A DNA stretch of 8,278 bases, taken from NCBI GenBank assembly GCA_021808195.1, contig JAKBCE010000103.1, positions 1 through 8,278 on the forward strand. Direction: 5' to 3'. Positions 552-8,277 of the stretch are shown here, piece after piece (the stretch's first letter is position 1; each line of letters starts with the position of its first letter). The DNA comes from Pseudomonadota bacterium. GTDB lineage: Bacteria; Pseudomonadota; Gammaproteobacteria; Steroidobacterales; Steroidobacteraceae. A model generated the notes under the pieces. That model was given only the letters and a program-made list of their open reading frames with translations. It searched no databases and was not told the DNA's origin. The position numbers and the translations under genes were made by a program.

Positions 552-1043
552 CTACAGCGCCAACTCCCCGCCGCGTACCGCGGCGCACAGTCCAAGCGAA
601 GCAGCTTCGACCAGATCGAGCACCTGCTCGAACCCATTCGCTCCGCCGTAGTACGGATCCGGCACTTCCATCAGACCGCTCTGCGGGGCAAATTCCAGCA
701 GCAGTCGCAACCGAGTGTGGGCCTCGGCCGGTGCCCGCCGCTGGAGCGTCTCGAGATTCTGTCGATCCATGGCGAGGATCAGGTCGAACACCTCGAAATC
801 GCGCGGCTCGACCACCCGTGCGCGCAGCCCGGAAAGGTCATACCCGCGCCGCAGCGCCGCTTCGCATGTACGGCGATCCGGCGGCTCCCCGGCGTGATAG
901 CCCGCCGTACCGGCCGAATCGACGGTGAGCGCCACTTCGGGCAGCTCACGCGCCGCCATGGCGCGAAATACGGCCTCGGCCGTCGGCGAGCGGCAGATGT
1001 TACCCAGACACACGAACAGAATTTTCACACCGGCTCCGCTCAT
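552..1043 (-). CDS. Low-molecular-weight protein tyrosine phosphatase
   Basis: This is a cytoplasmic phosphatase of the low-molecular-weight (arsenate reductase-like) fold, which hydrolyses phosphotyrosine through a phospho-cysteine intermediate. From ATG 1043 it has 163 residues, the usual family length. The N-terminal strand runs into the P-loop VCLGNICRSPTAE, with nucleophile Cys12, Arg18 and Ser19 matching CX5R(S/T). The C-terminal DPYYGG carries the expected general acid Asp129. The frame extends further upstream to 1076, but that extra N-terminus is unlike the family. A GTG at 1028 would give the very typical start MKILFVCLGN, with GGAG 3 nt before it; ATG 1043 has no clear Shine-Dalgarno, so either start is possible. 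In Xanthomonads such genes can lie in a kdsB-rne neighbourhood, and bacterial relatives often act on tyrosine kinases of exopolysaccharide synthesis. The role here is not shown by the sequence. Confidence 0.93.
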   Translation of the reverse strand: MSGAGVKILFVCLGNICRSPTAEAVFRAMAARELPEVALTVDSAGTAGYHAGEPPDRRTCEAALRRGYDLSGLRARVVEPRDFEVFDLILAMDRQNLETLQRRAPAEAHTRLRLLLEFAPQSGLMEVPDPYYGGANGFEQVLDLVEAASLGLCAAVRGGELAL

Positions 1044-1063
1044 CCAACGCTTGAATGGGGGAA

Positions 1064-1092
1064 ATTCTAGGTGCATTTACCTAGGGTGTCTG
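1064..1092 (-). promoter_or_regulatory. Predicted sigma70-type promoter of the phosphatase gene
   Basis: On the minus strand a -35-like CAGACA (1092-1087, 4 of 6 to TTGACA) is followed after exactly 17 nt by TAGAAT (1069-1064, 5 of 6 to TATAAT). Transcription would begin near 1057, leaving a leader of about 14 nt to the ATG at 1043 or 29 nt to the GTG at 1028. It was found by eye and is not experimentally supported. Confidence 0.5.
1067..1084. promoter_or_regulatory. 18-bp dyad CTAGGT-N6-ACCTAG, candidate operator
   Basis: CTAGGT (1067-1072) and ACCTAG (1079-1084) are perfect inverted repeats around GCATTT. The dyad overlaps the -10 box and the spacer of the predicted phosphatase promoter, so a bound dimer would block it. 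The bound protein is unknown. The site has no central CG and does not resemble the LacI-type operator near 7850, so the neighbouring regulator is an unlikely ligand. Confidence 0.45.
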
Positions 1093-1173: not shown

Positions 1174-2202
1174 ATGGCAACCATCAAAGACGTGGCCAAG
1201 CTCGCCGGAGTCGGTGTTGGTACCGCCTCACGCGTCATTGCCGGCAAAGGCCCCGTTTCCCAGGATGCCATCAAGCGGGTGACCCAGGCGATCGAGGCGC
1301 TGCAGTACCGGCCCTCGCACGCCGCACGCGTCCTGCAGAAGGGCCACTCGCGCATGATCGGCGTGTTCATCCCGGTGGTCTCCGGATCGTTCTACACCCC
1401 GATCCTGCACGCGATCTTCCTCGCGCTGCACGCCCAGCAATGCCACATGGTGGTGAATTTCGGTCTCGAGCCGCACGACGAACGCAAAGAGGCTCTCGCC
1501 GGCGCCGAATTCCTCACCGACCGCGGCTGCGACGGGCTGCTGCTGATGGGCACGGCGCTCACCCCGTCCGATGCGGAACACATCACCCGGCTGCAACGCA
1601 ATTTCGTGCTGTTGAACCGCAGCCTGCCGCACCTTCAGGAACAGTGCTTCAACCCCGATCACCGCGCCGCCGGTGCGCTCGCCGCCCGGACGTTGTGCGA
1701 GGCCGGTCACCGGCGCCTCGCGGTCATTGAAGGTCCGAAGGAATCCCGCGACAACGCACTGCGCATGCGCGGGTTCTACGAGACGCTCACCGAGTACGGC
1801 ATCGACGTCGAGGCCCAGCCGCGCGTACATGGAAATTTCACGCCCGAGAGCGGCCGCTCCGGCACGCGCACGCTGCTCGAGACGAACAGGCCGTTCACGG
1901 CGCTGTTCTGCGCCAATGACGAAATGGCCATCGGCGCGCTCTCCTATCTGAGTCAGATCGGGATATCGGTGCCGAAGGACATCTCGGTCATGGGCTACGA
2001 CAACATCGACCTCTCGGCCGTCTCCGCGCCCCCGCTCACCACGGTGCTCATACCCTGGGTCGAGATTGCGACCAACGCGGTGCACCGGCTGCTGAACCTG
2101 TGCTACGGGTCAGCCCTGCCCGTCGAGCGGGAGATCGCCACGAAGATCCTCTGGCGCGATTCAGTGCGGCGCCTCCGCGCGGCGAATCAGCTCACCGGCT
2201 GA
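1174..2202 (+). CDS. LacI/GalR-family transcriptional regulator
   Basis: The protein has 342 residues, normal for the family. Residues 2-22 form the helix-turn-helix, MATIKDVAKLAGVGVGTASR, which differs from E. coli GalR in that stretch only at K9, G14, G16 and A18. A hinge follows at about 45-58 with the family's minor-groove Leu (AARVL, Leu54). Residues 60-335 are the two-lobed periplasmic-binding-like sensor domain, with IGVFIP, CANDEMAIGAL and the family's typical DISVMGYDNIDLS. Such proteins repress sugar-uptake and catabolic genes and release DNA on binding a small sugar. It is convergent with the receptor-halogenase-SapC operon, 27 nt between stops, and its recognition helix fits the GalR-like operator at 7843-7858, so control of that operon is the likely job. 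The effector cannot be read from the sequence. The start at ATG 1174 is fixed by the family N-terminus. Confidence 0.95.
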   Translation: MATIKDVAKLAGVGVGTASRVIAGKGPVSQDAIKRVTQAIEALQYRPSHAARVLQKGHSRMIGVFIPVVSGSFYTPILHAIFLALHAQQCHMVVNFGLEPHDERKEALAGAEFLTDRGCDGLLLMGTALTPSDAEHITRLQRNFVLLNRSLPHLQEQCFNPDHRAAGALAARTLCEAGHRRLAVIEGPKESRDNALRMRGFYETLTEYGIDVEAQPRVHGNFTPESGRSGTRTLLETNRPFTALFCANDEMAIGALSYLSQIGISVPKDISVMGYDNIDLSAVSAPPLTTVLIPWVEIATNAVHRLLNLCYGSALPVEREIATKILWRDSVRRLRAANQLTG

Positions 2203-2219: not shown

Positions 2220-2239
2220 CGGCGCACCGTCACGCGCCG
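2220..2239. terminator. Weak GC hairpin between convergent LacI-family gene and SapC gene
   Basis: CGGCGC (2220-2225) and GCGCCG (2234-2239) can pair around an 8-nt loop. The hairpin covers the 27-nt gap and the last codons of the SapC-family gene. There is no T-tract, and in DNA this GC-rich a 6-bp dyad is easily due to chance. Confidence 0.2.
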
Positions 2240-2967
2240 ATCGCGCTGTGCGCTGGCACAAGCCCTTCAGTCTGCTTCAGCAGGTGCGCATTTTTTGCTC
2301 GCGCCATCACCCGCACCTGCTTCAACGAGTTGATCATCATGTGGATCAGCGCCAGGTAGCCGCGCCGGAACAGCTCGACTACCACGGCATCGGGCAGCCG
2401 CGCGAGAGCGTCCTGATTGATCGTGTACAAGCCATCGCAATGGCGCAGCGTGCCGTCCTCGAACTCAACCTCGATGTCGATCGGCTCGATGAGATTCAGC
2501 TCGAGCAGTCGCGCGATGAAGATCCGGGTCTGCTCGATACCCGGGTGCAGATCCTGGAACGCCCAGATGATCCGCTGCAGATACCGGCTCGGCTGCCCCT
2601 GCTCGGTGAACAGTGACTGGCCGCTCTCGGCACCGACTCTCGGATCGTCCAAATCGATCGCCAGCTCCGGACCGTTGATGTAGAAGGGGCCGCGCTGCAG
2701 ACTCAAGGGCCGATAGAACTCCGGCTCGCGGCGCCAGTCGTCGAGAAACTGGTTTTCACCTTCGATGAACCCGAGCATCGCGCCGCAGAAGAACTGCCCG
2801 GTGTCCCTATGCTTGCCGAAGAGGATCGGATAGTGCACCAGCAGGTGCGAGAACTCCCCGACGATCACCTGCACGAAGTGCTGGTTGTCGCCGTGCGCCG
2901 CCGACGGCCGTCCGTCGACCTTCAGGTCGCGATATTTCTCTTTGTTCAGCGGTACGATATTGCTCAT
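2230..2967 (-). CDS. SapC-family protein
   Basis: A 245-residue protein with no signal peptide or membrane segment, so probably cytoplasmic. It resembles the SapC family (named after a Campylobacter fetus S-layer locus gene) in the N-terminal block FVQVIVGEFSHLLVHYPILF (residues 31-50), the central FFCGAMLGF and RGPFYI motifs, and the helical C-terminal segment around RRGYLALIHMMINSLKQV (201-218). The biochemical role of the family is unknown to me. In Xanthomonas, Caulobacter and relatives such genes recur beside Xanthomonas/Caulobacter-type TonB-dependent receptors and flavin halogenases. Here it is the last gene of the operon, 18 nt after the halogenase stop. No clear Shine-Dalgarno precedes ATG 2967, which suggests it depends on upstream translation. 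The assignment rests on recalled motifs and on context. Confidence 0.85.
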   Translation of the reverse strand: MSNIVPLNKEKYRDLKVDGRPSAAHGDNQHFVQVIVGEFSHLLVHYPILFGKHRDTGQFFCGAMLGFIEGENQFLDDWRREPEFYRPLSLQRGPFYINGPELAIDLDDPRVGAESGQSLFTEQGQPSRYLQRIIWAFQDLHPGIEQTRIFIARLLELNLIEPIDIEVEFEDGTLRHCDGLYTINQDALARLPDAVVVELFRRGYLALIHMMINSLKQVRVMARAKNAHLLKQTEGLVPAHSAIGA

Positions 2968-2985
2968 GAGGCGGTACGCGTCAAA

Positions 2986-4530
2986 TCAAACGGGCTGCAG
3001 CCCGTACTGGTAGATGCGGCTCAACAGCTCGCGGTTCTTCGGCAGCCGCGCACATAGCTGCGCGGTCATCCGGGCATTCTCCTCGACCAGCTTCGCGGCA
3101 TTGGCGGACGATTCGGCACGCTCCTCCGGCACCACCTCGGTGCGAAAGCCCATGCCGTACAGCACGTACTGATAACTCGCCGCCGGAAAGACTTCCTCCA
3201 GCCGGTCGAGCTCATCGAAGAACCACGGCGACTGGTATTTCCACAACGTCAGCATATCCTGAAGCCGCTGCGGCACGGTCGCCGGGTCGACATTATCGCG
3301 CCAGAATGCCGTGTCGGTGCGCCGCGTGAGCACGTAATGGAGCTTGAGGAAATCGATGATCCGGCCCCAGCGATACGCGGTCACCTCGTTGAAGCGCCGT
3401 GCAACGATGTCCATCACTTCCCGGCACGCCGGCATCTGTTCGGCGAGCAGCTTCGCCGAGAGCTCCACCAGGACGATCGCCGAGGCCTCGAGCGGCTCGA
3501 GAAACCCCTGCGCCAGTCCGACGGCGAGGCAGTTGTTCTTCCAGAACACCTGCCGATGACCCGAACGGATGGGAATCTTGCGCACCGGCAGATCCCGATG
3601 GCGCGCCCCGACGTAGCGCAGCAGCGTCTCGCGCGCGAGCTCTTCGCTCGTGTGCCGGCTCGAATAAACGTGTCCGACCCCCCGCCGGGTCGGCAGCGCG
3701 ATGTCCCAGATCCACCCCGCCTCCTGCGCCGTGGCGATCGTCTCCGAGGCCATCGGCTGATCGGGCGTATCGTACGGCACCTGCACGGCGAGCGCGGTAT
3801 CGCAGAGCAGGACATCCGAGCACGGTTTGAAACCCACCTTCAGCGTCTCGCCGAGCAACAGCGCACGAAAACCACTGCAATCGACGAACAGGTCACCCTC
3901 GAGGGTGCCCGCCTGCGCGGTCTCGAGGCCCGTGATGTCGCCCGACTCGCTCTGGTTAACGCCAGTGACGTCCGCCAGGACGTGGCGGACCCGCAGCTGC
4001 TCGATGCAGTGCCTGGCGAGAAACGGGCCGAACTTGCCCGCATCCAGGTGATACGAGTAGTTCGCCGCCGAGCGGTACTCCCCCTGCGCGATCGTCTTCG
4101 GCGCCAGTCCCTGGTCGCACAGCCGCCCCTGCGGCGTGACGAAATCGCAGAAACTCCCGGCGCGCCCCTCCGTCAGCCAGTGCGGCACCAGATTCACGCG
4201 CGAGAAGCCGTGCGGAATCATCAGCGGATGATGATATGCATCCCCGGCCTCCCCGCTCGTCCAACCGACGAATTTTCCGCCCTGCTTGAAGGCGGCATCG
4301 CACTCGCGAAACAGCGCAGTCTCGGACACGCCGATGCGCTCGAGGGTCGAGCGCATCGTAGGCCAGGTCCCCTCACCCACACCGATGGTGCGGATATCGG
4401 GCGACTCGACCAGCGTGACCGAGAAACCGCCCGCCTTCATCCTAGGTTGAAGGCGGGCGGCGATGATGCCTGCGGTGAGCCAGCCGGCGGTTCCTCCGCC
4501 GACAATAACCACCGAGCGGACCGGTTTCAC
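2986..4530 (-). CDS. Flavin-dependent halogenase, 'tryptophan halogenase' family
   Basis: A 514-residue FAD protein of the PrnA/RebH superfamily. These enzymes use FADH2 supplied by a separate reductase, with O2 and halide, to form HOCl or HOBr that halogenates an aromatic ring. Visible signatures are the nucleotide-binding loop VVIVGGGTAGW (7-17); FKQGGKF, with Lys82 at the position of PrnA Lys79; ADLF-like EGDLFVDCSG (211-220); and GFLEPLE, with Glu348 matching PrnA Glu346. The usual WxWxIP is GWIWDIALP, with Ala278 replacing the Pro, and the residue after the catalytic Glu is Ala349, not Ser. Both changes fit the TonB-receptor-associated subgroup that includes Brevundimonas BrvH and Xanthomonas homologues, whose natural substrates are unsettled. 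The start is GTG 4530, 4 nt after the receptor stop, with no Shine-Dalgarno, so translational coupling is likely. No flavin reductase gene is present in the window. Confidence 0.93.
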   Translation of the reverse strand: MKPVRSVVIVGGGTAGWLTAGIIAARLQPRMKAGGFSVTLVESPDIRTIGVGEGTWPTMRSTLERIGVSETALFRECDAAFKQGGKFVGWTSGEAGDAYHHPLMIPHGFSRVNLVPHWLTEGRAGSFCDFVTPQGRLCDQGLAPKTIAQGEYRSAANYSYHLDAGKFGPFLARHCIEQLRVRHVLADVTGVNQSESGDITGLETAQAGTLEGDLFVDCSGFRALLLGETLKVGFKPCSDVLLCDTALAVQVPYDTPDQPMASETIATAQEAGWIWDIALPTRRGVGHVYSSRHTSEELARETLLRYVGARHRDLPVRKIPIRSGHRQVFWKNNCLAVGLAQGFLEPLEASAIVLVELSAKLLAEQMPACREVMDIVARRFNEVTAYRWGRIIDFLKLHYVLTRRTDTAFWRDNVDPATVPQRLQDMLTLWKYQSPWFFDELDRLEEVFPAASYQYVLYGMGFRTEVVPEERAESSANAAKLVEENARMTAQLCARLPKNRELLSRIYQYGLQPV

Positions 4531-4534
4531 GGGA

Positions 4535-7500
4535 TCAGAACTGGGCTCGAACTCCGAACGAGAGCGAAGTCCCGTAGTCGATCAGATTCAACGTCTGGTT
4601 GGAGAACCGTCCATACGTGTGATAGATCGAGTTCAGCAGGTTGTTCGCCGTGAAGTACACGTTCAGGTGGCTGTCGATCTTGTAATTGGTCGACAGGTCC
4701 AGCTGGGTGAACGGCGCCTCGTACACCGGCTCGGCGCCGAACGCACTGTTGTCGTTCTGCTGACCGAGGCCGAGCAGCAGTTTGCCCTGCCAGTTCACCG
4801 TCATGCGCGCCTGCCACTTGCCCTTCTGATAGAAGAGCGTTCCGTTGGCAGAGTTGCCGACACCCGTCAATGCGAACTGATTCGTTGTCAGATTGTAATT
4901 GTCGAAGTTCGCATTGCTGTGCATCCACGTGCCGTTGATCAGAATGCCGAATCCGTACGGCAGCAGCTGCTGCCAGGTCGCCGACACGCCGGTGACGTCC
5001 GCCGACAGCTTGTTCGTGTAGGTCGTCTCCGCGAACACCATCGGTTTACCGCAGTTGGCATCGGTGAACAGGATGTGGCCGTTCTGGTTGTAGGAACACG
5101 GCGCGGGATCATTGATCGGAACCGTGACGTTCTGCACGTTGGAGGTCGGGAAATTCGACACCTGCTTGTAGAACGGATGCAACTCGGCGTAATCGCCGTG
5201 CTTGTAGTACCACGTGAGACGGAAGTCGAAGTTGTTCGACAGATACGGCTTCAGGTACGGATTATTTCCGGTTGCCGTCAGCGCGTTCACCAAACCACCG
5301 AAGCTGGTATTCGGAATGATCTGGCCGTTCGGCGGAGCGGATTCGGTCCGCGAAAAGTCGAACGCCGCCTCGAGATCATGCGTGGGCCACAGCGCGAGGT
5401 CGAGTGACGGCAGGAAGTATCCGTACGACAGCGAAGTCTGCGTCCACTGCGGGGCGCCCACAGCGAAGACATACTGCGTCGGATCCGCCGCGCCCTGCCA
5501 GGCGACAGACGTCAGCGGCGCGGACAGACCGGCAATTTGCTCCTCGGTACGCTGGTAGCGCATTCCGAGGCGGGTCATCAGCTTCATCCCGTAAACCCGG
5601 AAATTGTGACTGACCTGCACGAACGGCGAGTAGTTCATACGCGCCACGTGCTGCACCGAGTTCGGCACCAGCACCTGCGTGGGAACGCCGCCGGTATAGC
5701 GCGGGTAACCCGTGGTCGGATTCCACCCCGAATCGACCGGTTGCGTCTCCAGGTAGCTCAGCAGCGACCACGGATTGTAGTAGAGGAACTGATTCGGCAG
5801 ATTCCCGTTGCCGCTGTATCCCGGCATCCAGGTGCCGGTATGCAGCACGGTAAACAATGATGACGGAACGGTAACGCCCTGAGTATTGCCGGAAGCCGGA
5901 CCGTAGCCTGACCACAGCTCCCAGTAATTGTTCTGGAAAGTATTAAATGTCTTGGTGTTCCAATCATCATCGAGGAACTGGGCACCAAAGGTCAATTTCG
6001 TGCTGTCGCCCGGCGCCCACGTCGCACGAATCGTCCCCTCATTGATCTGATCCGCATTTTCGTTGGTCGTCAGCGGAAGAATGTGCGAGCCGATGATATA
6101 CGGATTCAAACCGAGGTAATTCGGCGAGGCGACCACACCGGAGCCCGAGGCAACCGCATTCGGTCCGTAGGCGCTCCAGTACGGCACTGCATTGCTGCCG
6201 CTCGCCACCAGGCCGCCGGTATAGACATTGGTGGCGTCGCCGTAACCGACATCGCCCTCGACTGTATTAGTGTTGCCGTTCGGATTGAATTTAGACACAG
6301 ATTGATCCGCGTCCGCCTCCACCGTCCAATCGGCATTCACGTTCCACAGCACATTGAGCCCGTAGGTATTCGTCACGATGTAGGCGTTACCGATTTCCGC
6401 CTGCAGGTCCGTCGGGCCGGGGTAATTGAAGTTCGTGATGGTGCCGTTGCTGTCGACCGTCGAGTCCGGGAACGCGCCGAACCAGGTCGTACGTCCCCAG
6501 CTCTGATCATATTCGTCCGTTGACGAATAATTATCATCGAGAGTCACCATGACGGCATTGGTGGGATGCCACTGCAACACCACCCGCCCATCCTTGCTGC
6601 GCGTATCGACGTGCTCGAGATACATGCTGAGCTGCTGCGGATACCAGACCGGCACCTGAACGTTGCCGGTGGCGCCCGGCCCAACAGCGGCGCAACCGGT
6701 GCTGCCGAATGCCGTCGTGGTGTTGGCCGCAAGATTCGCGCAGCCGAAATTCCCCGCCGTGACGCCTTCCCAACCCGCCACGTCGCTGTGATGAGCGGTG
6801 GTGTGGTAATCGGTATAGTCGCCGTCGATCAGGATGCCGAACTTGCCGTGATCGAAAGTATCGCTGAACAGACCGCCGACCGCCGGGCGGATGCCGCCGT
6901 TCATGGTGTAATCGGTCCCGCCGATGTTCACACCCGCATGCAAACCGGGATTCTCGAAGGGCGTGAGCATCTTGACGTTGATGACCGAGCCGATATTTCC
7001 CGAAGACAAGGCCATATCGGGCGTCTTCAGGACGTCGATCTGCCCGACGTACATCGCCCCCAGAGATGCAAAATCGAAGTTCTGCCCGTTGCCCGAGGCG
7101 ATCTGGCGGCCATTCACGAGGACGGTATTGAACGACCCGCCGAAGCCGTTGACGTTGATCCCCTGTGCCAGTCCGGTCGCCGGCCCGGCGACGAAGCCGG
7201 AGGTAATCGAGCCGCGATTGACGGTCACGCCGGGCAAGTGCGCCAGCGCGCCACCGATCGAGGAGTCGGGGAACTGACCAATGCTCTCGGCGGAAATCGC
7301 ATCGACCACACCAATCGACTCACGCTTGATCGCGAGGGATCGCATCAAGGAGCCGCGAATGCCCGTCACGACGATCGGCGCCAATGTGGTGGCCGATGAC
7401 TGTCCGGCCATGTGGATGGTCGGTGTCTCGCCGTTGGCAGCCGCAGTGGCAGTGCCGGCCGGCGCGCTGTTCTGCGCGTACAGGCCCGCGCCATTCGGAC

Positions 7501-7765
7501 CAAATGAAGCGGCGGAGGCCAGCGGAGTCGCCTTGAAGCCGCGCCGCTTGACTTTGGCCGCCTTCGCGGGCGCAGCCGGTTGGTCCGAGCGCTTTCCAGT
7601 CGGGGCGCTCTGGGCATGGGCGACACCGCCAATGCCCAAGGAAAGCGAGCCGAGTGCCAGCCCCGATAGACCGAGGTTGCCGTACGCCGCGCGGCCCAGG
7701 CCGGCGAGACGAGCCCCCTTCTTCATGGCGTTCTTTGATCCGTTACGCGACGTCTTCCGACTCAT
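4535..7765 (-). CDS. TonB-dependent outer-membrane receptor, Xanthomonas/Caulobacter type
   Basis: A 1076-residue outer-membrane receptor for energised import of a ligand. From ATG 7765 there is a long, basic signal peptide (KKGARL, hydrophobic core 30-48, probable cleavage after AHA near residue 51). Next comes a ~75-residue low-complexity linker with a basic patch (KVKRRGFK), then a TonB box-like APIVVTGIR (129-137). The plug (about 137-270) has IGQFPDSSIGGALAHLPGV, INVNGFGG, VLVNGRQIASG and GSVINVKMLTPF, typical of this receptor class. The rest is a beta-barrel ending in the outer-membrane signature GVRAQF. No STN signalling domain is visible, so sigma/anti-sigma control is not expected. 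Loops are rich in Trp, Tyr and Asn (for example around 612-690), as in carbohydrate-binding receptors, but the ligand is unknown. Cys342/358 and Cys890/905 may form loop disulfides. ATG 7765 was chosen for its strong Shine-Dalgarno; the open frame upstream to GTG 7858 lies within the operator. Confidence 0.95.
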   Translation of the reverse strand: MSRKTSRNGSKNAMKKGARLAGLGRAAYGNLGLSGLALGSLSLGIGGVAHAQSAPTGKRSDQPAAPAKAAKVKRRGFKATPLASAASFGPNGAGLYAQNSAPAGTATAAANGETPTIHMAGQSSATTLAPIVVTGIRGSLMRSLAIKRESIGVVDAISAESIGQFPDSSIGGALAHLPGVTVNRGSITSGFVAGPATGLAQGINVNGFGGSFNTVLVNGRQIASGNGQNFDFASLGAMYVGQIDVLKTPDMALSSGNIGSVINVKMLTPFENPGLHAGVNIGGTDYTMNGGIRPAVGGLFSDTFDHGKFGILIDGDYTDYHTTAHHSDVAGWEGVTAGNFGCANLAANTTTAFGSTGCAAVGPGATGNVQVPVWYPQQLSMYLEHVDTRSKDGRVVLQWHPTNAVMVTLDDNYSSTDEYDQSWGRTTWFGAFPDSTVDSNGTITNFNYPGPTDLQAEIGNAYIVTNTYGLNVLWNVNADWTVEADADQSVSKFNPNGNTNTVEGDVGYGDATNVYTGGLVASGSNAVPYWSAYGPNAVASGSGVVASPNYLGLNPYIIGSHILPLTTNENADQINEGTIRATWAPGDSTKLTFGAQFLDDDWNTKTFNTFQNNYWELWSGYGPASGNTQGVTVPSSLFTVLHTGTWMPGYSGNGNLPNQFLYYNPWSLLSYLETQPVDSGWNPTTGYPRYTGGVPTQVLVPNSVQHVARMNYSPFVQVSHNFRVYGMKLMTRLGMRYQRTEEQIAGLSAPLTSVAWQGAADPTQYVFAVGAPQWTQTSLSYGYFLPSLDLALWPTHDLEAAFDFSRTESAPPNGQIIPNTSFGGLVNALTATGNNPYLKPYLSNNFDFRLTWYYKHGDYAELHPFYKQVSNFPTSNVQNVTVPINDPAPCSYNQNGHILFTDANCGKPMVFAETTYTNKLSADVTGVSATWQQLLPYGFGILINGTWMHSNANFDNYNLTTNQFALTGVGNSANGTLFYQKGKWQARMTVNWQGKLLLGLGQQNDNSAFGAEPVYEAPFTQLDLSTNYKIDSHLNVYFTANNLLNSIYHTYGRFSNQTLNLIDYGTSLSFGVRAQF

Positions 7766-7842: not shown

Positions 7843-7858
7843 GTGGAAACGCTTCCAC
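7843..7858. promoter_or_regulatory. LacI/GalR-type operator overlapping the receptor transcription start
   Basis: GTGGAAACGCTTCCAC is a near-perfect dyad: arms GTGGAA/TTCCAC and the central CG are symmetric, with only the two flanking central bases breaking symmetry (14 of 16). The central CG and the GTG...CAC ends are typical of LacI/GalR-family sites. Compared from memory with the E. coli gal OE site GTGTAAACGATTCCAC, 14 of 16 bases agree. It lies just downstream of the predicted -10 box and covers the predicted start near 7854, where a bound repressor would block initiation. An outer dyad, GGAACG (7832-7837) with CGTTCC (7867-7872), is almost concentric with it. Confidence 0.8.
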
Positions 7859-8136: not shown

Positions 8137-8277
8137 CTATCGCACGCTGTAGCCGCGTGCCTGCAGGCACGCGCTGAGTGCGCGCCGGTAATCCATGGCC
8201 TTGTGGGCCATCTGGCGGGCCTGCTCCCGAGCCGCTGAGTTCATCGCCTGGTCATTGGCCTGGGCATTGGCCGCATC
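8137..8277 (-). CDS. C-terminal end of a small Ala/Gln-rich protein (partial)
   Basis: Reading the minus strand from 8277, 46 codons run open to TAG at 8139-8137. The frame continues past the window edge, so the N-terminus is missing. The piece is Ala/Gln/Asn-rich and helical (ANAQANDQAMNSAAREQ) and ends in YRRALSACLQARGYSVR. An RA..AC(L/M)..RGY(T/S)VR ending is common, as I recall, in small proteobacterial envelope proteins with an upstream glycine zipper, where it forms a conserved C-terminal cap with a single Cys. That identity is inferred from the ending alone, since the diagnostic N-terminal part is outside the window. Coding is supported by the plausible composition, a likely terminator after the stop, and the contrast with the meaningless frames on the other strand. 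Confidence 0.6.
   Translation of the reverse strand, partial: DAANAQANDQAMNSAAREQARQMAHKAMDYRRALSACLQARGYSVR

Follow-up and report, generated by a model that had tools for sequence, protein, structure and literature searches.

The window, by which we mean the whole stretch of 8,278 bases analyzed here, carries three adjoining genes for a TonB-dependent receptor (TBDR), a flavin-dependent-halogenase-family protein (FDH), and a SapC-family protein, which belong to a module that recurs almost without exception among the closest relatives of this FDH. SapC often follows large proteins that look exported, and one FDH subclass follows SapC, which makes action on the receptor in the cytoplasm the simplest mechanism that unifies these patterns. 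The reading that we place ahead of its alternatives, while holding it tentatively, is that FDH and SapC, usually together with a Cupin_8 protein, may act in the cytoplasm on the receptor protein before it is exported.

Organization of the locus

The genes for SapC (positions 2230..2967, 245 amino acids), FDH (2986..4530, 514 amino acids), and the TBDR (4535..7765, 1076 amino acids) lie on the minus strand and are packed with gaps of 18 and 4 bases, which confirms the tight packing described in the first-pass annotation; all three coordinate pairs match open reading frames. SapC matches Pfam family PF07277 (E 1.2e-58) with 198.7 bits against a threshold of 28.9, covering profile positions 1 to 218 of 220, and FDH matches PF04820 (E 1.7e-118) with 396.8 bits, the gathering score being 21. 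The TBDR, the first gene of the presumed operon, is of the Xanthomonas/Caulobacter type (TIGR01782, E 3.5e-123; 412.7 bits, curated cut-off 310) and is composed of plug and beta-barrel domains (PF07715 and PF00593), for which the AlphaFold2 model has a mean pLDDT of 75. Its start at 7765 (MSRKT...) was chosen over an alternative, longer frame reaching 7858, because the longer frame crosses an operator-like site and because MSRKT is found in four of the five closest relatives. No signal peptide was seen at the N termini of FDH and SapC, as judged by eye.

The rest of the window carries the 3' end of an RNase-E-like plus-strand reading frame (1-504) with no Pfam match, a low-molecular-weight phosphatase gene (552-1076, minus strand), and a LacI-family regulator gene (1174..2202, plus strand; PF00356 and PF13377), which is convergent with the operon. 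The window's genes include no NRPS or PKS genes, just as the first-pass annotation had stated, and by Pfam they include no carbohydrate-active enzyme or inner-membrane transporter. Promoter-like sites (3, versus 1.4 in shuffles) and terminator-like sites (7, versus 4.9 in shuffles) stay near the shuffle level, and an Rfam search of the window returned no family at the gathering threshold.

Recurrence of the module

A scan of genome contigs for FDH confirmed 581 loci, of which the best 80 were analyzed, so that the following counts describe the close subfamily of the window's FDH. These 80 loci come from gammaproteobacterial metagenome-assembled genomes (MAGs; one Steroidobacteraceae), Steroidobacter, and many sphingomonads and caulobacters. 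SapC is present in 79 of them, the exception (L073) being a contig that begins within the TBDR gene, and a TBDR is likewise present in 79, the exception (L021) being a 4-kb contig. The claim that the three genes recur together in related bacteria is thus borne out.

A JmjC-like Cupin_8 gene is the usual fourth member (73/80 loci), its Pfam identity resting on one representative. It is missing from the window's five closest relatives (L001 to L004 and L006), from L041, and from the cut contig L073, and these seven loci indicate that Cupin_8 is dispensable in the same operon. The window's lineage is without Cupin_8 at this locus, and in the five closest relatives, the only 5 of the 80 loci with a LacI gene at that place, LacI occupies the position of Cupin_8. 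A second SapC is encoded elsewhere in the genome in four of these five relatives; in the three inspected, it belongs to a module with FDH and Cupin_8, plus a TBDR where the contig runs on, so that these three Cupin_8-less relatives still own a second module with Cupin_8. The Cupin_8 partner had been overlooked by the first-pass annotation, as had the LacI gene with its operator-like site and the large, exported-looking neighbors of SapC.

Two layouts were found. The collinear order TBDR-FDH-SapC is shared by the window, Steroidobacter, and most gammaproteobacterial MAGs, and in 48 of the best 80 loci, Cupin_8 and SapC are divergent from TBDR-FDH.

The association was then set against chance expectation in 97 genomes from the window's order. 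SapC is found in 27 of these genomes, listed FDHs are found in 31, and both are found in 21, so that a listed FDH is present in 21/27 genomes with SapC versus 10/70 others (Fisher P = 5.7e-9). With 5 kb taken as the limit, at least 20 of the 35 SapC genes have an FDH nearby, where chance predicts 0.5, and at least 74 of the 107 FDHs have a listed TBDR nearby, where chance predicts 1.8. These association counts are lower bounds owing to partial FDH and TBDR listings: the 107 PF04820 places are the listed matches, with weaker or partial ones excluded (including an FDH fragment at G027:C93 and a broken remnant in G095, both adjacent to SapC), and the TBDR search scored no more than 8 candidates per genome. 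The co-occurrence survey that the first-pass annotation had proposed as a check thus came out in favor of an association.

From the 15 SapC genes with no listed FDH nearby, 12 were inspected. Next to one of them (L186) are a Cupin_8 gene and a fragment of an FDH, and next to another (L182) is a broken FDH remnant; five (L183 to L185, L187, and L188) lie near a TBDR of another kind, two of them (L184 and L185) combining SapC and TBDR with a 2OG-Fe(II) oxygenase where FDH is missing. Near the other five (L177 to L181), the searches used found neither FDH nor TBDR, and the lone SapC of L178 adjoins a tannase/feruloyl esterase.

FDH and the altered WxWxIP motif

The closest solved structure to the window's FDH is 2pyx (528 bits), followed by 9ltb and 9lu2, with PrnA and RebH far behind. 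The FAD-binding motif GGGTAG (GxGxxG) is found at the N terminus. The catalytic lysine K82 (codon 4285..4287, minus strand), which we take to be K79 of PrnA, and the catalytic glutamate E348 (codon 3487..3489, minus strand), presumably E346 of PrnA, are each conserved in 84/84 aligned FDHs. A catalytic role of E346 in PrnA is stated in the available passages of the paper on the halogenase BrvH (PMC5945002).

The full WxWxIP motif is not found in the window's FDH, where codons 273 to 278 (3697..3714, minus strand) read WIWDIA, with alanine replacing the proline. In the alignment of the 84 FDHs, both tryptophans of WxW are present in 84/84 sequences, and position 278 is G in 44, P in 26, C in 9, A in 3, and S in 2. 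The proline is absent in all 44 FDHs of the window's receptor clade. Among the 43 receptor-FDH pairs of the order survey, for which about 700 bases of flank were inspected, SapC stands beside 15/17 FDHs lacking the motif proline versus 2/26 FDHs with proline; conversely, 15 of the 17 survey FDHs with an adjacent SapC lack the proline. The available passages of the BrvH paper state that WxWxIP had been suggested to prevent monooxygenase activity of these enzymes (PMC5945002), and since the SapC-linked class mostly lacks the proline, a monooxygenase role is possible for it. The altered motif also lends some support to the idea of the first-pass annotation that the enzyme may have been repurposed.

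The window's FDH scores 37.2 bits against the NCBIfam profile of QhpG (cut-off 240) and 19 bits against that of GoxB (cut-off 400), in both cases far below the threshold. A candidate SapC/FDH fusion (L221) was rejected, as one long frame contains SapC alone and the other the halogenase domain; the latter frame also has a subthreshold redox match.

Pairing of FDHs with receptors

A receptor tree was built from 43 paired receptors, 40 unpaired receptors (40 of the 95 TBDRs with no listed FDH within 20 kb), 40 locus pairs (every second of 79), and the window, with 122 of the 124 sequences passing a length filter. FDH pairing changes 7 times on this tree, versus a mean of 34 and a minimum of 27 in 200 shuffles. 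The FDH and TBDR distances correlate with an r of 0.85 over 82 pairs (permutation maximum, 0.17) and with an r of 0.65 over the 43 survey pairs only (permutation maximum, 0.14). These results show a stable FDH-receptor partnership, although some of this signal would also arise from co-inheritance of neighbors.

FDH genes of this kind are numerous, with up to at least 11 in one genome. In this genome (G005), which has the highest listed number in the order survey, 8 of the 11 FDHs have a listed TBDR no more than 5 kb away, two further ones (L197 and L198) lie beside receptors missing from the list, and one (L199) stands alone, so that a receptor is the feature common to 10 of the 11. The loci contain GH67 with glucuronate isomerase, a GH2 exo-glucosaminidase, GH31, GH32, and others, and another has a glucuronyl esterase with sugar-metabolism genes. 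As the FDH-TBDR units stand at loci for such unlike glycans, a single kind of aromatic cargo cannot account for all of them, and a cargo-specific aromatic substrate for FDH appears unlikely.

In raw counts, one receptor residue, Trp428 (codon 6482..6484, minus strand), tracks FDH pairing and is a candidate residue only: it is present in 55/56 receptors with a proline-less FDH, in 3/26 with the other FDH type, and in 2/40 with no FDH. In the AlphaFold2 model, it ends the barrel strand 405-428, probably at the outer rim, a predicted position that would suit sugar binding equally well. Independent contrasts were too few for significance, and Trp428 was therefore rejected as a proven modification site.

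SapC and its large neighbors

The structure of SapC is predicted with confidence (pLDDT, 93), and the model has no structural match in the PDB or BFVD, a missing match being no proof of a new fold. The idea that SapC is a disguised oxygenase was rejected, because the HxD...H pattern is absent among the invariant residues of 40 sequences and because of the missing structural match. The idea of phage-borne SapC was rejected as well: not one of the 7 pattern matches obtained from viral contigs was a relative.

A class-level survey of 229 genomes found SapC in 32, and 35 of the 40 SapC places were examined. A protein of at least 900 residues lies within two genes of SapC in 23/35 loci versus 1/20 control regions, and a cysteine-poor protein of this size does so in 22/35 versus 0/20, leaving 13/35 loci with no such cysteine-poor neighbor. 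Because the gene-calling rules were unequal, the rule for SapC loci using homology and that for the controls not, the count was repeated with the simpler rule of the controls, which gave 25/35 loci with a large protein (1/20 control regions) and 24/35 with a cysteine-poor one (0/20 control regions), the center gene missing SapC in 3/35 loci; simple rules of this kind may take false frames in G+C-rich DNA.

The large cysteine-poor neighbors are rich in G, S, T, N, A, V, and D. Three of the 22 are TBDRs, and a fourth TBDR narrowly fails the composition rule. In some loci, ShlB/FhaC or HlyD genes are adjacent, and SecA and a FecR protein are also among the neighbors. We infer from the composition, together with the ShlB/FhaC and HlyD neighbors in some loci, that these large proteins are probably exported. 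In 11 of the 35 loci, the rules used found no large protein, TBDR, or FDH, so the tie to SapC is strong and not universal.

Regulator and probable cargo

The operon does look like an uptake unit, as the first-pass annotation had it. A single match to a LacI-family operator-like palindrome, TGGAAACGCTTCCA (7844..7857), lies about 80 bases upstream of the receptor start, with 0 matches in 200 shuffles. Receptor, LacI-family protein, and palindrome together give the putative combination of a receptor with a sugar-type regulator that is expected of a carbohydrate utilization locus. An exact copy of TGGAAACGCTTCCA is found upstream of the TBDR in L001, L003, and L006; in L004, only 49 upstream bases are present, and in L002, neither the receptor start nor the site is visible. 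The LacI-family protein is presumed to regulate the operon, and LacI-type control is likely shared in the window's lineage.

A regulon search in the genomes of the five relatives found one-base variants of the palindrome between the genes for a sodium:solute symporter and for a GH3 glycosidase in two relatives (L090 and L093), at a symporter in a third (L089), upstream of a symporter copy whose neighbors are a GH30 enzyme with CBM6, a TBDR, and an apparent second LacI gene (L092), and at one more place (L091). A reversed control pattern also gave 2 matches in the same five genomes, which leaves the variant sites no more than suggestive; they may also belong to the second LacI protein. Our guess for the inducer and cargo is a beta-linked gluco-oligosaccharide.

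Proposed mechanism and alternatives

In the mechanism that we infer, for its substrate (the receptor), its adaptor (SapC), its reaction type, its LacI control, and its sugar alike, the operon, probably under LacI control, would serve the uptake of an oligosaccharide, the first gene encoding the outer-membrane receptor and the other two its cytoplasmic partners. SapC would bind or present the newly made receptor. Before the receptor is exported, its aromatic side chains would be halogenated or hydroxylated by FDH, joined in most relatives by the JmjC-like Cupin_8 oxygenase. This reading draws on the near-obligate linkage in the best 80 loci (SapC 79/80, TBDR 79/80, and Cupin_8 73/80), on an FDH pairing that follows the receptor in tree changes and distance correlation, on the many FDHs per genome at loci for unlike glycans, on the large cysteine-poor neighbors of SapC and the FDH-less loci with TBDR and 2OG-Fe(II) oxygenase, on the match of SapC to one FDH subclass, on catalytic residues that are intact in 84/84 FDHs, and on the weak match of FDH to QhpG and GoxB. 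Several points stand against it. Neighbor co-inheritance alone also predicts mirror-tree agreement, a barrel that leaves by the Sec route is difficult to modify while still in the cytoplasm, the Trp428 contrasts are not significant, and the QhpG match is far below the cut-off; moreover, 13/35 SapC loci have no large cysteine-poor neighbor, 7/80 loci have no Cupin_8, and BrvH, a characterized relative, halogenates free indole, if weakly (PMC5945002, available passages).

The alternative to which we give the most weight, while considering it unlikely, is that the product of FDH is a small molecule, halogenated or hydroxylated and derived, for example, from indole or tryptophan, which serves as a signal or acts against rivals when the sugar is present, with SapC as an accessory. 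The catalytic residues are intact in 84/84 FDHs, LacI control would couple production to food, and, in the available passages of its paper, BrvH, a non-tryptophan relative, halogenates free indole, although the activity is so low that the authors doubted indole as the natural substrate (PMC5945002). Such a product would account neither for most FDHs of a genome adjoining a receptor of their own nor for SapC accompanying large, exported-looking proteins where FDH is absent. Slightly less likely still, an FDH-like protein that no longer halogenates could form with SapC a sensor or chaperone that controls receptor amount or assembly; the missing motif proline (15/17 SapC-adjacent survey FDHs and 44/44 in the window's receptor clade) and the export genes near SapC in some loci would fit this, whereas the invariance of both catalytic residues, Lys and Glu (84/84), favors catalysis.

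The persistence of the linkage across two layouts, mostly with no LacI gene at that place, and the discrimination of SapC between FDH subclasses make it rather improbable that the genes are co-inherited for sugar-dependent expression only while serving separate processes, even though LacI-type control is likely shared in the window's lineage. The least probable of the five readings is the one offered by the first-pass annotation, namely that FDH acts on an imported compound, an aromatic or a glycoside, such as an aromatic substituent carried as an ester by a plant oligosaccharide. The alphaproteobacterial relatives do stand amid GH3, GH43, arabinofuranosidase, alpha-galactosidase-like, and esterase genes, and a lone SapC lies beside the tannase/feruloyl esterase mentioned above. 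The cargo of a TBDR, however, reaches the periplasm, whereas FDH and SapC have no signal peptide by eye, and FDHs also occur at GH32, GH31, GH67, and GH2 loci; the suggestion thus fits poorly with both the apparent location of the enzyme and the unlike glycans of its loci.

Modification of the receptor in the cytoplasm, if it occurs, would explain the outcome for BrvH, whose tests on free small molecules, in the available passages, gave no convincing natural substrate (PMC5945002). It would also give SapC a first function and show that Gram-negative bacteria modify nutrient receptors after translation. A sequence rule from the survey, the association of SapC with FDHs that have lost the WxWxIP proline, makes the question testable. 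A wider version, which we regard as slightly more doubtful than the core reading, is that a cytoplasmic module in which SapC guides FDH, usually with Cupin_8, to the new receptor oxidizes or halogenates receptor aromatics and so tunes the receptor's ligand binding, stability, or recognition (e.g., by phages), with SapC serving large exported surface proteins in general as an adaptor.

Comparison with known systems

Each component family is known; neither the module nor the pairing of SapC with one FDH subclass turned up in the open-licence PMC literature searched. In that literature, no paper combines SapC, tryptophan halogenase, and TonB-dependent receptor, none combines SapC with halogenase, and none links SapC family, SapC-like, or SapC protein with TonB-dependent; in broader searches, "tryptophan halogenase" occurs in none among the matches listed. 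The available text of one paper with tryptophan/flavin-dependent halogenase and TonB-dependent terms describes no gene pairing (PMC11337851), and that of another contains neither SapC nor TonB (PMC8269204).

Among solved structures, 2PYX (named "Tryptophan halogenase" in the PDB) resembles the window's FDH in Pfam family, in similar length, in the catalytic Lys and Glu, and in an altered motif, with WIWDIG in place of WxWxIP. It is presumably from Shewanella, and to our knowledge, it has no known substrate. BrvH, whose structure we take to be PDB 6FRL, likewise shares the Pfam family, the similar length, and the catalytic Lys and Glu. According to the available passages of its paper, BrvH is inactive on tryptophan, turns over indole slowly, and, unlike the window's FDH, has the full WxWxIP motif, and "TonB" and "SapC" have 0 occurrences there (PMC5945002). 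The tryptophan halogenases PrnA, RebH, and Thal belong to the same Pfam family and score about 221 to 242 bits against the window's FDH, versus 528 for 2PYX; unlike their systems, the window has no biosynthetic genes and an FDH without WxWxIP.

QhpG and GoxB are flavoproteins that modify protein side chains. Their sequence similarity to FDH is distant, and a protein substrate would be common to them only if the receptor reading is true; unlike the QhpG system, the window has no QhpC-like substrate gene among its genes.

The Xanthomonas sux locus, which serves sugar scavenging, resembles the window in combining a TBDR with a LacI/GalR-type regulator, and halogenase and SapC have 0 occurrences in the available text of its paper (PMC1790865). 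Unlike TBDR carbohydrate utilization loci, the window has no glycoside hydrolase or inner-membrane transporter. The S-layer region of Campylobacter fetus has a SapC with a surface protein as its neighbor, a likeness by family name and surface-protein neighbor, not by sequence comparison; in the window, unlike in that region, the part of surface protein falls to a TBDR, with an FDH gene alongside.

Gene neighborhoods of SapC and the halogenase family

At two loci from other genomes, L228 (positions 3961 to 5283, minus strand) and L231 (3990 to 5321, minus strand), a CCP/MauG-family di-haem peroxidase is encoded close to SapC (PF07277), and a TPR-methyltransferase is also close to SapC at L228. 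The SapC gene of L178, which has no flavin-dependent-halogenase-family (FDH; PF04820) gene nearby, is immediately preceded by a tannase/feruloyl esterase gene (4303 to 5946, plus strand). At L210, a SecA-type protein is encoded upstream of SapC (3170 to 5155, plus strand). At L182, from genome G095, SapC is intact, and the adjoining FDH gene is a remnant with stop codons.

At L192 (contig C24 of genome G051, 2752 to 10622), five FDH-family genes form a nearly gapless tandem run on the same strand. In the window itself, the end of an Ala/Gln/Asn-rich reading frame (8137 to 8277, minus strand) continues beyond the window edge.

At L193, a TonB-dependent receptor (TBDR) and two FDH genes are followed by a gene whose TPR-containing product carries a sulfotransferase domain (4243 to 6189, minus strand) and is possibly a further side-chain-modifying enzyme in a TBDR-FDH setting.
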